Virus record (IMG/VR): IMGVR_UViG_3300027971_002619
Coordinates: 1 to 22,991 of that record
Length of the DNA: 22,991 nucleotides
Source: a virus
Reading direction: 5' to 3' (one strand)
The position numbers and the translations under genes were made by a program. How positions within the stretch are numbered: position 1 is the first letter of the stretch; each line of letters starts with the position of its first letter. Below the pieces are notes generated by a model. The model was not told the DNA's origin, made no database searches, and saw only the letters and a program-made list of their open reading frames with translations. Shown here piece after piece: positions 1,029-6,131 of the stretch.

Positions 1029-1094
1029 ATCGTCCGTCCTTTCGACAGTTGGAAAGCCGCTCCGTGCGGCTCTGGTTACACCGTAGACGGCGTG

Positions 1095-1409
1095 TCAAGC
1101 AATACCGTTGAATCGGTAGCCATCCCACGTATACCGAGGCACAGAGAACCGTTCCTCCTTCGGCGTCGCCACCACTCGCCGCGCTCGACACTCAGCCGCA
1201 CGCTCTGCAATCTGCTCTGGCGTCGGGTCATCCTCAAAGATTTCCCGCGTGCCCTTCTGGCGGTTCGGCAGCTTGTGCCGCGTCTTCAGCCTATGCACGT
1301 AAGACTGCGAACAGCCGAGGGCGGCGGCGATCTCCTGGTAGGAGTCGCCGCGCGCCCACAGCCGATGCAGTGTGGCCGCGCAGTAGTTCACCTCGCGTCC
1401 TTGCGGCAT
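1095..1409 (-). CDS. helix-turn-helix DNA-binding protein
   Basis: A 104-residue protein with an N-terminal helix-turn-helix: LHRLWARGDSYQEIAAALG then CSQSYVHRLKTRHKLP, roughly residues 14-46. The spacing resembles GcrA-like and sigma-region-4-like HTHs. The C-terminal half is charged and ends with a compact aromatic segment (VPRYTWDGYRFNG). The start codon lies one base beyond the dnaN stop (TGACATG), so it is almost certainly translationally coupled to the clamp gene. It is likely a phage regulator or a replication accessory factor. The target is unknown. Confidence 0.82.
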   Translation of the reverse strand: MPQGREVNYCAATLHRLWARGDSYQEIAAALGCSQSYVHRLKTRHKLPNRQKGTREIFEDDPTPEQIAERAAECRARRVVATPKEERFSVPRYTWDGYRFNGIA

Positions 1410-1410
1410 G

Positions 1411-2529
1411 TCAGTCCACCGCCAGTGGCATTATCACGCCCGTGTTGTCGCCGCATCGCAGGATCACCGCAGATTGTGCGTCAACGGCTTCGACTTCAAC
1501 TTCCGGCTCTGCTTCACTGTCGATGCCGCCCAGCCATTGCTGGACGAACAACGGGTCAAGCTTCACCGTCGCCTTGTCACCGGCTTCCACGACGTCGCAG
1601 GTGACGCTGGATTCGCCTTTCTCGGCAGACTGCCCGTGCAGCCAGATGCCGTCGCCGGAAAACACGAACTGCACGCCTTTGCTTTCCTCGCTGGTGACGA
1701 TGGCAGCCGCTCGAGTAGCCGCCAACAGATCCGCACGGCTGACCGTCGTGGCCTTGGCGTCACGTTCCGGCAGCGTGTCACGCCACCGAGGGTAGCGACC
1801 GTCAAGCAGACGAGCCGTGACGGTAGCGTTACCAACCGTGGCAACGATTTCACGCCCCGTTGACTCAAGCTGCACGCTGGCGTCACCAGCTGACGCAGCA
1901 AGCCGAGCGATGATTGCCATCGCACGAGCCGGGACGAGCGTCTGCGAGTCGTCCACCGCCAGGTCGTGCTCGCAGTTCACGCACGAGAGCCTTCGCCCGT
2001 CCGTGGCAACGAAAGTGACAACCTCGCCTTTGACTTCCACCAGCACCGCACCGAGAGCGTAGCGGCTTGACTCATCGTCCACGGCAAAGACGACGCCTTT
2101 GACGGCACGGCAGAACTGGTCAACCGGAAGCCGTGTGACCGGCTTCCCACCGTCCACGTTCCACGCCGGGTACTCGCCAGCGTCCTCAGTCGGCAGCGTC
2201 CATTCGCCACGACCGGCCTTGATGACGCACGACGACTCGTCAGGCGTGATCGTGATTTCATCGCCCGAGTGCGAGCCGAGGATTGCAGACAGTCTGTCCT
2301 TCGGCAGCAGCAGACTCACGTCGCTCGGAACCGTCTCAAGCGTCACGTCGATGCGGACATCGCCGTCACTCCCAGAAAGCACCCCGTCCGAAAGCAGCAC
2401 GTTCTGCAATACGGGCCGCACGCTTTTCGTTGGCACTGCTGCCGCCACGGCGTTCAGCGCCGCCTTGAGTGCTGGTGCCGACAGGGTCGTGCCAGCCCTT
2501 GTCTTCTTTCGTTCCTTCGTTGCTGTCAT
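1411..2529 (-). CDS. dnaN: DNA polymerase III beta sliding clamp (DnaN)
   Basis: A full-length beta clamp of 372 residues (bacterial DnaN is usually about 366-380). It has three clamp-fold repeats with recognisable landmarks: SVRPVLQNVLLS and DVRIDV in domain 1, FAVDDESSRYALGAVLVEV with VTFVATDGRRLS in domain 2, and ATVTARLLDGRYPRW and a final VIMPLAVD comparable to the MPM-type end of DnaN. The frame is open to 2604, but I chose the ATG at 2529, where AAAGGA lies 8 bases upstream. The clamp tethers polymerase to DNA. No polymerase gene is visible here, so it presumably loads on the host replisome or serves other clamp-binding partners. Confidence 0.93.
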   Translation of the reverse strand: MTATKERKKTRAGTTLSAPALKAALNAVAAAVPTKSVRPVLQNVLLSDGVLSGSDGDVRIDVTLETVPSDVSLLLPKDRLSAILGSHSGDEITITPDESSCVIKAGRGEWTLPTEDAGEYPAWNVDGGKPVTRLPVDQFCRAVKGVVFAVDDESSRYALGAVLVEVKGEVVTFVATDGRRLSCVNCEHDLAVDDSQTLVPARAMAIIARLAASAGDASVQLESTGREIVATVGNATVTARLLDGRYPRWRDTLPERDAKATTVSRADLLAATRAAAIVTSEESKGVQFVFSGDGIWLHGQSAEKGESSVTCDVVEAGDKATVKLDPLFVQQWLGGIDSEAEPEVEVEAVDAQSAVILRCGDNTGVIMPLAVD

Positions 2530-3060: not shown

Positions 3061-3615
3061 CTACTCGCCTCCTAGAGCCCGTTCGGCAGGTTTCCTACCT
3101 GCCGAATCGGGCGGTGTGTCTTCATTGAATTCCCCATTGGTAAATTGGTTACCAATGGGAATTACTTGTAAGGGGCCACGTAGCGTGTGCGCGCCGTCCA
3201 CGCCTTGTGTACGCGCTGTCCACGCCTCGTGTGCGCTCTGTACACGCCTCGTGTACGGGGCGCTCACGCTACGTGTACAGGGTGTACACGCTACGTGTGC
3301 GCCCCCATCGGTGGGGATCACAAGCTCGTACACAGACCTGCCACCGCCAGTCGCCTTGTCAGCGAGCATCAAAACAGATGCGTCAAGCAGTTGGTGAATG
3401 CCCCGATGTACAGATGTCGGGCGTACCCCAAGGAATTTGGCGGCACCCCTGACGCTCATTCTGAGTGTGCACTTCTCGTAATCCGCGAAATGGAGTGCGT
3501 AGCACAGCATTAGACGCCCCTCGCTGCCGAGTGCGGCCATGCGCCCGCTTTCCAGAATCGCCCTGTGGCGACGCCGTAGCTCGCCTCTGGCGTTCTTTGC
3601 CTTTTCATCTGCCAT
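3061..3615 (-). CDS. winged-helix candidate replication initiator (lambda O-like arrangement)
   Basis: A 184-residue protein. I chose the ATG at 3615 (starts MADEKAKN), with GGAG 8 bases upstream and an 11-base overlap with the primase-helicase gene; the frame is open to 3702. Residues about 30-100 form a winged-helix-like unit (LMLCYALHFADYEKCTLRMS, then GAAKFLGVRPTSVHRGIHQL, then a basic GGGRSVYELVI strand). The C-terminal third has low-complexity Thr/Arg/Val/Ala composition because it is encoded by five 22-bp tandem repeats and an AT-rich palindrome. A DNA-binding N-terminus, iterons in its own gene and an adjacent helicase gene match lambda O. That function is inference. Confidence 0.72.
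   Translation of the reverse strand: MADEKAKNARGELRRRHRAILESGRMAALGSEGRLMLCYALHFADYEKCTLRMSVRGAAKFLGVRPTSVHRGIHQLLDASVLMLADKATGGGRSVYELVIPTDGGAHVACTPCTRSVSAPYTRRVQSAHEAWTARTQGVDGAHTLRGPLQVIPIGNQFTNGEFNEDTPPDSAGRKPAERALGGE
3121..3171. other. AT-rich segment beside the iterons, candidate DNA unwinding element
   Basis: A stretch clearly richer in A+T than its surroundings, including ATTGAATTCCCC, TAAATTGGTTA and GGGAATTACTTG. It sits immediately beside the tandem repeats at 3185-3294 and inside the C-terminal coding part of the candidate initiator. In lambda-type origins an AT-rich region next to the iterons is where the strands open. The assignment here rests on position and composition only. 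Confidence 0.5.
3133..3159. repeat. perfect 11-bp-arm palindrome in the AT-rich segment
   Basis: CCCATTGGTAA (3133-3143) and its exact reverse complement TTACCAATGGG (3149-3159) are separated by 5 bases. With one extra C on the left side the pairing continues outward through AATTCC/GGAATT. It is a protein-binding dyad or hairpin in the proposed origin. There is no T-run beside it, so it is not a simple terminator. Confidence 0.8.
3185..3294. repeat. five 22-bp dyad-symmetric tandem repeats (iterons), putative replication origin
   Basis: Five head-to-tail units start at 3185, 3207, 3229, 3251 and 3273, each exactly 22 bp, with a partial sixth from 3295. Each begins GTGTRC, carries TGTMCACG or a close variant in the middle and ends CYTY or CTAC. 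Several units are near-palindromes: unit 5 has GTGTAC and GTACAC around a 5-base centre. Since 22 is not a multiple of 3, the encoded peptide changes frame at each unit, which argues that the DNA rather than the peptide is selected. The units lie in the candidate initiator gene next to an AT-rich region, as in the lambda O-gene origin. Confidence 0.75.
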
Positions 3616-5428
3616 CCTTCGTGCTCCAAGCGGCGAAGTCGGCAATCTCGCCAACGGAGGTGTCTTCAAACGTCTGGAACTTCCCGTGGAACCAAAGCTC
3701 AACGTCGCGGCGCTCGCCCTGCCGCAGCTTCTTGCAGTGCCACAGCACTTTGATTTCGCCGTCTTGGCCTACTTCCTCGGTCCTCTGGCCGAAAAGGAAG
3801 TTGTCCACGTCAAAGTCGATCTGGTTTGACCCCTTCCCGATGTTGCCGATCTCGGTGTTGTGATCGACCCCCTTGGCGACGTTCGTCACCAGCAGCGTGG
3901 CGACGTTCATCGTGCTGGTGATTTCACGCAGCTTGAGCAGACACTCGTTGATTTCGCCTGTCTTGTCCGTGAAAGCCCGAGAACTACGCACAAGCTGGAG
4001 GTAGTCAACGACCAACAGTTTGATGCCGTCCTTTGCGACTGCCCGCTCAATCCTGTCAATGATCAGCGGAGGTTCAATCAGCTTGAGCCTGTCGCCAACG
4101 GCTGCGGCAAGAGCGGCAGCGTACTTGCGGGAATCGCCTTCCTTTCGGATGACGTCTTGAAGCGTCAGGCCAGCAGAGTTTCCTCCCCAGTGCGTCACGG
4201 CCCGCGCGGCCAAGGCGGCGCGTGTCATCTCGCCCAAGCACCAAGCCGCGTTCATGGTCTGGTCGTTAGAAAGGCAGGCAATCGCCAACTGGAGGGCTAG
4301 GGCAGACTTTCCAACGCCCGGTGCAGCTGCGACAGCAGTCATCTGCCCGAGGGGCAGACCACCGTCAAACAGCCTGTCTAGCGATGGAATGCCGGTCGGG
4401 ATCGCCGGCGTCTCCTCCTGCCGAATCCAATCTTCAATCGCGTCAACGAGGGTGGGGGATGGGCGGTCATCGACGGCGACAAGCGGGGCGCTCAGAGATG
4501 AAATTCGACCAAGCCGAACGCATGCCTCCCGCCTCAGTTGCGTTGACGGCGTTCCACTGTCGGAAACAGCCATGTAGACAAGCGTCCCGACGCCACTGCG
4601 AGAGTCAAACCTCGACCACCTGTCAAGGCACTCCTCACGGCTGAAATCGTGCCACTGGGAAGACCATGTAATCCAATCATCACGAAGAGACTCAGACGTC
4701 CCTTTGCATGCGTACCCAACAGCACGCCAATCGTCTCCGATGCTGGCCCTGTTTCTGCCGATGCTTTCTAGGCAAACACGAGCAAGCTCGATATCAAGCT
4801 CGACATCCGTCTCAAATGACTTTTCGCTGTGGAGCGTCGGCTCCTGCTTGGGGAAATACTGCCGTTCAAGCCATTCCATCGGCAGCGATATGTCGATTAC
4901 ATCGCCATCGCATATCGGGTTGCCAGTGAACGTGAACCATCTGTTTTCGCTGTACCGCTCAACGGCACCAATTCCGCCTGGGAGTTCGATCCGCGTGCGG
5001 CCTACGATGCGAGGTGATTTTCCGATGAAGTGCAGGCCCATGCCGGATGGCGTGAGTTCGCAGAAGGCACCAGAAAAGACATTGCACACGTCTGCCGCCC
5101 ACGGCTTGATCCACTGCTGCTCGTCATAGCAGTTGTCGAGGTCAACGCCGACGATGTCGTCCTCGTCGCTGAACACAAAGCCGACGCCCAGGCCGCCACG
5201 GTCGTTGGCTTCACGCATTACGGCATCAAAAGACCGCCACGCGGATGGGTCGTTGTAGTTCGTTCCGTAATCGCCGCCGGCACTGATGGGCACCTTGCGA
5301 GCTTTCTTGCCGTCGCCGTAGTCCATGTAGTCCCAGCAGATCCACCTTGGAATGTCACGCAGCGACTGCGGAATTGCACTCGGAGAGATCGGCGGCTCGG
5401 CTGTCCGCATTCTTTTTGAAGATGTCAT
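3605..5428 (-). CDS. primase-polymerase / PriCT / DnaB-type helicase fusion
   Basis: A 607-residue protein. The ATG at 5428 has AAGGA 7 bases upstream and lies in an ATGA overlap with the preceding gene. Residues about 25-175 look like an archaeo-eukaryotic primase (PrimPol) domain: GVDLDN with metal-binding D96/D98, SGMGLHF (H133) and ENRWFTFTGNP. Residues about 212-290 match a PriCT-2-type region (WRAVGYACKG, DRWSRFDSRSG). Residues about 345-595 are a RecA-fold DnaB-type helicase: TGIPSLDRLFDGGLP, Walker A APGVGKSA (369-376) and Walker B LLVVDYLQL (D475). It would unwind and prime phage DNA at the origin encoded in the next gene. Confidence 0.88.
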   Translation of the reverse strand: MTSSKRMRTAEPPISPSAIPQSLRDIPRWICWDYMDYGDGKKARKVPISAGGDYGTNYNDPSAWRSFDAVMREANDRGGLGVGFVFSDEDDIVGVDLDNCYDEQQWIKPWAADVCNVFSGAFCELTPSGMGLHFIGKSPRIVGRTRIELPGGIGAVERYSENRWFTFTGNPICDGDVIDISLPMEWLERQYFPKQEPTLHSEKSFETDVELDIELARVCLESIGRNRASIGDDWRAVGYACKGTSESLRDDWITWSSQWHDFSREECLDRWSRFDSRSGVGTLVYMAVSDSGTPSTQLRREACVRLGRISSLSAPLVAVDDRPSPTLVDAIEDWIRQEETPAIPTGIPSLDRLFDGGLPLGQMTAVAAAPGVGKSALALQLAIACLSNDQTMNAAWCLGEMTRAALAARAVTHWGGNSAGLTLQDVIRKEGDSRKYAAALAAAVGDRLKLIEPPLIIDRIERAVAKDGIKLLVVDYLQLVRSSRAFTDKTGEINECLLKLREITSTMNVATLLVTNVAKGVDHNTEIGNIGKGSNQIDFDVDNFLFGQRTEEVGQDGEIKVLWHCKKLRQGERRDVELWFHGKFQTFEDTSVGEIADFAAWSTKDGR

Positions 5429-6099
5429 CCGGCGTTCCTTTTCTTTGTCGCTCGCTCTTGAGCGTGGTGCTCGATGTGCCACTGCTGCGAAACGACGACA
5501 AGCGTCGCGTGCCTCTTGTGAAACTCCCGCCACGACTCACGCAGCGGGCCAGGGGCAAGCGTGTAGCCGCCGCCGTCAAACAAATCCATCAGCGGCAACT
5601 GCTCTGGCGTCGCGCCAACCTCACGGAGCCAGAGTTCCGCAATTGCTGAAAATGGCATGCCGTCGTGATGAACAACGGCATCGGCACCAACGGAACCGCA
5701 GCCGGCGATATAAGCCTCTTGCATCTGCTGCCTAATGGCTTCGCGCATGGCGTTAATGGCGACGCCCCGAGATGCAGGACGACCTCCACACATCTTGCTC
5801 CAGCCGATCATGTCTCTGGAGCCATCTCCGTATTGAAAAACTACGTGACGCCCAATCTGTCCATCGCGTGTAGATCGCAAGACGTTCCGAACGTAGGTGC
5901 TGGCAGGAATCCTTGAGCCATCACGAAGACGAACAAGCTCAACGAAAAAGGCAGCGTCGTCTACGGACATCTCTAACTCTTCTGCGCAGCCTTCAAAAAG
6001 GTATTTGTCGATGATCTCTCGACACCTCATGCGGAGCGATGTCGCGTTGGCGAAATACTCGCCGAGGATGTCGCACGCATATTCAGTTGTCTTTGCCAC
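5425..6099 (-). CDS. hypothetical protein upstream of the primase-helicase
   Basis: A 224-residue protein. I chose the GTG at 6099 (starts with KTTEYACDILGEYF after the initiator), preceded by AAAGGA at 6 bases. The open frame reaches 6267, but that extension is Arg/Ser-rich and overlaps another gene. It is mostly soluble and helical, with segments such as CREIIDKYLFEGCAEELEMS, LRDGSRIPASTYVRNVL, and a C-terminal FHKRHATLVVVSQQWHIEHH that is His-rich. It is translationally coupled to the primase-helicase (ATGA). It may be a replication accessory factor, but I do not recognise a family. Confidence 0.75.
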   Translation of the reverse strand: MAKTTEYACDILGEYFANATSLRMRCREIIDKYLFEGCAEELEMSVDDAAFFVELVRLRDGSRIPASTYVRNVLRSTRDGQIGRHVVFQYGDGSRDMIGWSKMCGGRPASRGVAINAMREAIRQQMQEAYIAGCGSVGADAVVHHDGMPFSAIAELWLREVGATPEQLPLMDLFDGGGYTLAPGPLRESWREFHKRHATLVVVSQQWHIEHHAQERATKKRNAG

Positions 6100-6131
6100 A
6101 GGCAGTCCTTTGCCTCTAGTCGCCGCCGTGC

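Follow-up and report, generated by a model that had tools for sequence, protein, structure and literature searches.

What does a regular array of DNA dyads do inside a protein-coding gene of a virus? The question is raised by the window analysed here, a stretch of 22,991 nt that comprises positions 1 to 22,991 of IMG/VR virus record IMGVR_UViG_3300027971_002619. A sequence-only reading of this stretch had proposed that the repeats and an AT-rich segment next to them are the replication origin of the element. Our comparative data, among them the conservation of the array and its linkage to a helicase gene, point the same way: the array and its AT-rich hairpin very likely serve a temperate phage as its origin of theta replication, which would start here, within the gene of the phage's own initiator. 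Coordinates of the features discussed are given in Table 1.

Table 1. Features of the putative origin region and its replication genes (positions are those of the window)
Feature	Position	Strand	Description
DnaN-like DNA polymerase sliding clamp	1411–2529	-	PHROG_947 (4e-58), Pfam DNA_pol3_beta domains
Putative initiator gene	3061–3615	-	184-aa ORF, ATG at 3615; winged-helix domain and predicted disordered C-terminal part carrying the putative origin DNA
Inverted repeat IR2	3082–3106		GC-rich, 10-nt arms, 5-nt loop, close to gene end
AT-rich segment, candidate DNA unwinding element	3128–3167		35% GC vs 59% for the gene; lowest-GC 40-nt stretch of the gene
Inverted repeat IR1	3133–3159		11-nt arms, 5-nt loop (CCCATTGGTAA-5-TTACCAATGGG), within the AT-rich segment
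Six dyad iterons, 22-bp steps	3177–3297		CAC-N5-GTG cores start at 3177, 3199, 3221, 3243, 3265 and 3287
Primase-helicase gene	3605–5434	-	609 aa: PrimPol-like domain, PriCT-2, DnaB_C

A tandem dyad array within a winged-helix gene

Residues ~6–100 of the putative initiator were modelled confidently as a winged helix (AF2 pLDDT 84–95 for most of residues 11–100), and residues 113–184, which are coded by the repeat region, were predicted to be disordered (AF2 pLDDT below 50). The reading frame and the model agree with the earlier placement of the repeats in the C-terminal coding part of a winged-helix gene, and the overlap with a PrimPol-helicase gene described at the same time was found to be 11 nt long. 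The window protein has no PHROG or Pfam match, and no replication-initiator family was matched; initiators of some relatives match replication-initiation or O-like PHROGs, and there was no match to a Rep_3-type initiator among 35 family members. Foldseek retrieved viral HTH and replication proteins, the N-terminal domain of GpO among them. Since sequence and fold searches of the PDB returned generic winged-helix regulators only, the fold alone cannot tell an initiator from a repressor.

Each repeat unit in the window is a dyad, GTACACG-nnn-CGTGTAC, with a dyad score of 0.60 vs 0.43 ± 0.04 for shuffled columns. The 22-bp period and the internal dyads reported from the sequence alone were borne out, but the number of units had to be corrected from five to six. 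Self-match at offset 22 reached 78% in the best 88-nt stretch of the array; in 1000 synonymous-codon shuffles, which preserved the protein, it averaged 51% and never exceeded 68%, and codon-order shuffles reached 46% at most.

Conservation of the array among relatives

We sought relatives by scanning viral contigs with the initiator and helicase proteins and with an alignment of initiators, and selected them by protein only. Protein similarity yielded 27 distinct initiators, the window's included, most of them 30–95% identical to the latter, and a 22-bp-step array was present at the same place of the gene in all 27. In nearly all relatives an AT-rich hairpin follows the array, and in most a GC-rich hairpin comes next. 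The array of one relative (L016) consists of half-sites only, with 21–23-bp steps. Across the 45 distinct homologous genes collected in total the array was kept in some form in every case, with at least five tandem dyads in 41; because 18 of the 45 were found through the repeat pattern itself, 27/27 is the unbiased figure. Homologs without repeats at this place, which the sequence-only reading had singled out as evidence against an origin, therefore did not turn up in this set.

Repeat number in the family varies from five to seven, and some relatives have one step of 23–24 bp. The sequence of the unit is lineage-specific (GTACACG.., GTGCGCAC.., GGTCACcactcGTGACC, TTGGGACgaactGTTCCAA), with a CAC-N5-GTG core and variable outer bases in most lineages. 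Units of L018 and L020 read GGRAC-N5-GTTCC, and the recognition helix of these two proteins also differs, carrying GVGTSS instead of GVxPTx. A two-dyad motif was found in 11 of 13 larger contigs (the 11 are 29–49 kb long), at one array only in each; the two contigs without it are of the GGRAC type.

We also scanned 2.9 million viral contigs at the DNA level only, using three tandem CAC-N5-GTG dyads. This gave 61 contigs, 47 of which encode an initiator overlapping the array, and in 45 of these 47 a helicase gene adjoins. The other 14 contain no run of at least four regular units, and their single, irregular or widely separated matches look as chance would give. The same scan revealed a sister clade whose helicases are 38–44% identical to that of the window; it has the same array together with an AT-rich hairpin that is unrelated in sequence. 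L114, a contig of 12,957 bp, matched the three-dyad pattern at each of its ends and also showed a remote DnaB-like match (24%).

A tyrosine integrase is encoded in all 12 larger contigs tested, and the phages of this family are therefore probably temperate. No relative of the initiator family was found in the cultured-phage collection that we searched.

AT-rich segment and hairpins next to the array

The AT-rich segment with a palindrome that had been noticed beside the repeats is the lowest-GC 40-nt stretch of the gene and contains IR1; a GC minimum lies beside the array there, as it does in the 16 genes that were measured. IR2, which was absent from the earlier description and is new here, lies at the same place in most relatives and is weaker in the sister clade. 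The single-strand fold of IR1 has a z of about –8 to –9. Arms of both hairpins covary: those of IR1 pair to 94% with their own partner vs 42% with arms of other phages (27 distinct hairpins), with at least three pair types at each position, and those of IR2 to 99% vs 52% (18 hairpins). In many members (e.g. L017, L050, L098, L065 and L079) the AT-rich segment also contains short CAGT/CAAT/CCTCAA-like repeats in ~10-bp steps.

Conceivably, IR1 and IR2 act in mRNA, through pausing, termination or translation of the next gene, and not in replication, a role that would be compatible with the origin reading and that we hold to be possible rather than probable. Their location at the gene end, their strong folding on either strand and a weak terminator score of IR1 on the strand opposite to the operon would fit such a role; on the operon's own strand, however, no T-run follows IR1 or IR2, and the two hairpins adjoin the iterons in a fixed order, as in lambda ori.

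The heptamer TTGGTTA occurs once in the window, at 3145–3151 inside IR1, and covers 7 of the 8 bases of the NrS-1 primase site, TTTGGTTA (PMC8718748). That this heptamer makes IR1 a specific start site for PrimPol was considered and dropped, since L008, which has the same primase, is without TTGGTTA.

Replication genes around the array

Every relative checked has a helicase or primase-helicase gene that lies next to the initiator gene or overlaps it. The protein encoded by the window's overlapping gene matches the DNA primase (1e-35) and DnaB (3e-30) PHROGs and the Pfam domains PriCT_2 and DnaB_C, and its primase domain matches PDB primase entries, including 7ola (8e-17) and 6a9w (5e-15), among which we take NrS-1 to be represented. 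A PrimPol with PriCT-2 precedes DnaB_C in the window and also in L008 and L010. In most relatives the N-terminal domain of the helicase is another one, which matched RepB_primase (PF16793) in 4/4 scanned (L015, L018, L031, L039); no RepB-type primase was found in the window protein, which has PriCT_2 instead. Both helicases scanned in the sister clade (L065, L097) gave a DnaB_C match only, with no primase domain. The best reading of this pattern is that the N-terminal module of the helicase has been swapped (PrimPol, RepB-type or no primase) while the origin and the initiator stayed constant.

The sliding-clamp gene lies close to the initiator gene and belongs to the same replication module. 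No helicase loader was identified in the window by PHROG or Pfam searches. The gene upstream of the helicase (5425–6102) encodes a 225-aa protein with no convincing PHROG or Pfam family match, which could be a candidate helicase loader.

Two other functions of the array can be considered. It could be an operator, bound by a winged-helix repressor that controls its own operon and has no part in replication. The fold is common in repressors, tandem dyads are typical of operators, and the array does lie within the operon. Yet the sites are at the 3′ end of the gene and not at a promoter (a search of the vicinity gave no sigma-70-like promoter), they are followed in nearly all relatives by an AT-rich hairpin under strong constraint, the constant neighbour is a replicative helicase, and several relatives match replication-initiation families; we regard an operator as improbable. 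Although parS and pac sites can also have tandem repeats, a partition (centromere-like) or packaging site that lies in an initiator gene by chance is a highly improbable explanation. The neighbours examined included no ParA/ParB-type gene, the gene that invariably harbours the array is the winged-helix gene linked to a helicase and not a terminase gene, and the AT-rich stretch and hairpins fit an origin better.

The GC-skew check suggested with the first description was run on seven larger contigs (37–49 kb), and in none of them does the skew switch at the array. Since skew follows gene orientation in these contigs, and in lambda too, it carries no weight for or against an origin.

Selection on the DNA of the array

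In close pairs, which are partly non-independent (the window, for example, was used twice), pS was 0.023 in the array and 0.020 in the AT-rich segment with IR1, whereas the winged-helix codons reached 0.228 and the helicase 0.356; pN in the array (0.030) was not below its pS. Because synonymous changes are ~10-fold fewer in the array than in the winged-helix part of the same gene, the array is selected as DNA and not as peptide, a conclusion that had been drawn before from the repeat period. In L111 the reading frame stops within the array while the array and hairpin continue, and in L087 and L115 it stops at the right arm of IR1 and the DNA elements continue intact. The notion that the DNA repeat merely reflects a functional, repetitive C-terminal peptide is rejected by the synonymous-site test: although the region is translated in nearly all relatives, the 22-bp period is not divisible by three, the array shows no deficit of amino-acid changes, the encoded peptide is predicted to be disordered, and frame loss in L111 and L087 left the DNA in place.

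Comparison with lambda and other replicons

The lambda O gene was subjected to the same analysis. Its iterons occupy nt 349–433 with steps of 20, 24 and 23, an AT-rich 40-mer (20% GC) begins at nt 436, and at nt 477 comes the inverted repeat GTCAGAGAATTC-tggc-GAATCCTCTGAC; in the window's initiator gene the array is at gene nt ~313–441 and IR1 at 457–483. Both origins, the known and the putative one, are thus nested directly after the N-terminal DNA-binding domain of the initiator, with dyad iterons, AT-rich stretch and inverted repeat in the same order and at nearly equal gene positions. This fits the lambda-O-style design proposed at the outset, and it also means that a nested origin of this design was already known. 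In lambda ori, 19-bp inverted-repeat iterons bind O dimers and the opening region is a 40-bp A+T-rich segment (PMC5043065).

Several differences set the two apart. The present family has five to seven iterons at a 22-bp step, whereas lambda has four at 20, 24 and 23 bp, and it has a second, GC-rich hairpin. O continues after the origin into a C-terminal domain, to residue 299, whereas the window protein has none and ends shortly after the hairpins. The helicase gene is upstream in the window, whereas the gene for the loader P is downstream in lambda. The initiator may be a remote O or of independent descent: its comparison with lambda-type O by hhalign gave a probability of only 9% (E 0.0035), while the relative L016 matches the O-like PHROG phrog_678 at 4.7e-8. 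The locus is best read as a nested origin of the lambda type whose initiator belongs to a distinct family, with coevolving iterons and, as partner, a DnaB-type helicase with an exchangeable N-terminal module.

A similar arrangement is known from Bacillus phage SPP1, where the origin-binding protein binds repeats within its own gene (oriL in gene 38) beside an AT-rich DUE and a DnaB-type helicase is phage-encoded (PMC6316719). SPP1 differs in its separate loader gp39, its second origin oriR and its direct repeats. Iterons of plasmids such as P1, F and R6K are likewise direct repeats, bound by monomers, and their initiators are of the Rep_3 type, whereas the units described here are dyads.

Other parallels involve a primase. 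In IncQ RSF1010, RepC binds iterons, RepA unwinds, and RepB′ primes at the ssiA/ssiB hairpins (PMC4234260, PMC4434180). Its oriV and the phage module have in common their own initiator with iterons, their own helicase, their own archaeo-eukaryotic-type primase and origin hairpins, and the four RepB-clade relatives scanned carry the RepB_primase domain, fused to DnaB_C. The window family departs from RSF1010 in that its iterons are dyads and lie within the initiator gene, and in that a single polypeptide combines primase and helicase. In addition, another PrimPol is present in the window's own clade, and no primase domain was found in the sister clade. Since both of these clades keep the hairpins, these are not simply RepB sites, and their interpretation as RepB-type ssi sites is weakened; the analogy is attractive for the RepB-type clade and does not account for the hairpins of phages in which no primase domain was found. 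A PrimPol-helicase with a hairpin origin is also found in pRN1 (PMC4234260). The window shares the PrimPol-helicase with pRN1 and NrS-1, and the 6a9w and 7ola matches of its primase domain belong to this likeness. It differs from both in its DnaB-type helicase domain and in having a separate winged-helix initiator gene with an iteron array inside it, an arrangement that is not described for them.

A model of initiation

On the reading of the array as a nested origin, the winged-helix protein, probably as a dimer, would bind the six dyads, spaced at roughly two helical turns on one face of the DNA. The bound array may strain the neighbouring AT-rich segment, which would open, and the helicase encoded by the overlapping upstream gene would be loaded onto the opened strand. 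Primers would then be made by the fused primase or, where a clade shows none, by that of the host; this may happen near the hairpins, whose role is the least certain part of this mechanism.

A bolder proposal, which we consider rather unlikely although worth stating, is a self-contained module in which the small winged-helix initiator, coevolving with its dyad iterons, loads the DnaB-type helicase directly, with no separate loader, the two hairpins within and next to the melting region serve as loading or priming sites, and PrimPol, RepB-type and host primases are exchangeable under an unchanged origin design. If true, it would combine a lambda-type origin with an RSF1010-type start.

Uses of the family and searches for prophage relatives

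The locus introduces a previously unannotated family of phage initiators with predicted binding sites in their own genes. As initiator and sites share one gene, dozens of initiator/iteron pairs can be read directly; they make up a natural data set on the joint change of a winged helix and its DNA site under constant 22-bp phasing and a constant dyad, the origin design staying fixed as its letters change from phage to phage. The module swap beside a constant origin turns helicase loading and the start of the first primer into a testable question. The bare pattern, CAC-N5-GTG every 22 bp, could be used as an origin marker in viral metagenomes.

Searches for prophages of the family in GTDB genomes with a peptide pattern revealed no relative, and a profile search of about 790 genomes of two phyla revealed no convincing one. 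A four-dyad DNA pattern gave 105 stretches in GTDB genomes (four tandem CAC-N5-GTG dyads at 22 bp; L125–L229), none with a convincing initiator or helicase match. These stretches are unrelated to the initiator, and many are copies spread over many contigs of single Prevotella, Nocardioides and Tannerellaceae genomes.

A separate locus was noticed in a genome of the Croceicoccus phylum (L260), where a 283-aa winged-helix gene (1072–1923, minus strand) lies beside an apparent MobC-type gene. At 1513–1570 this gene contains ~22-bp repeats with CTGTCC/GGACAG dyads, alongside an AT-rich stretch, and it may be a further example of a nested origin with this design.
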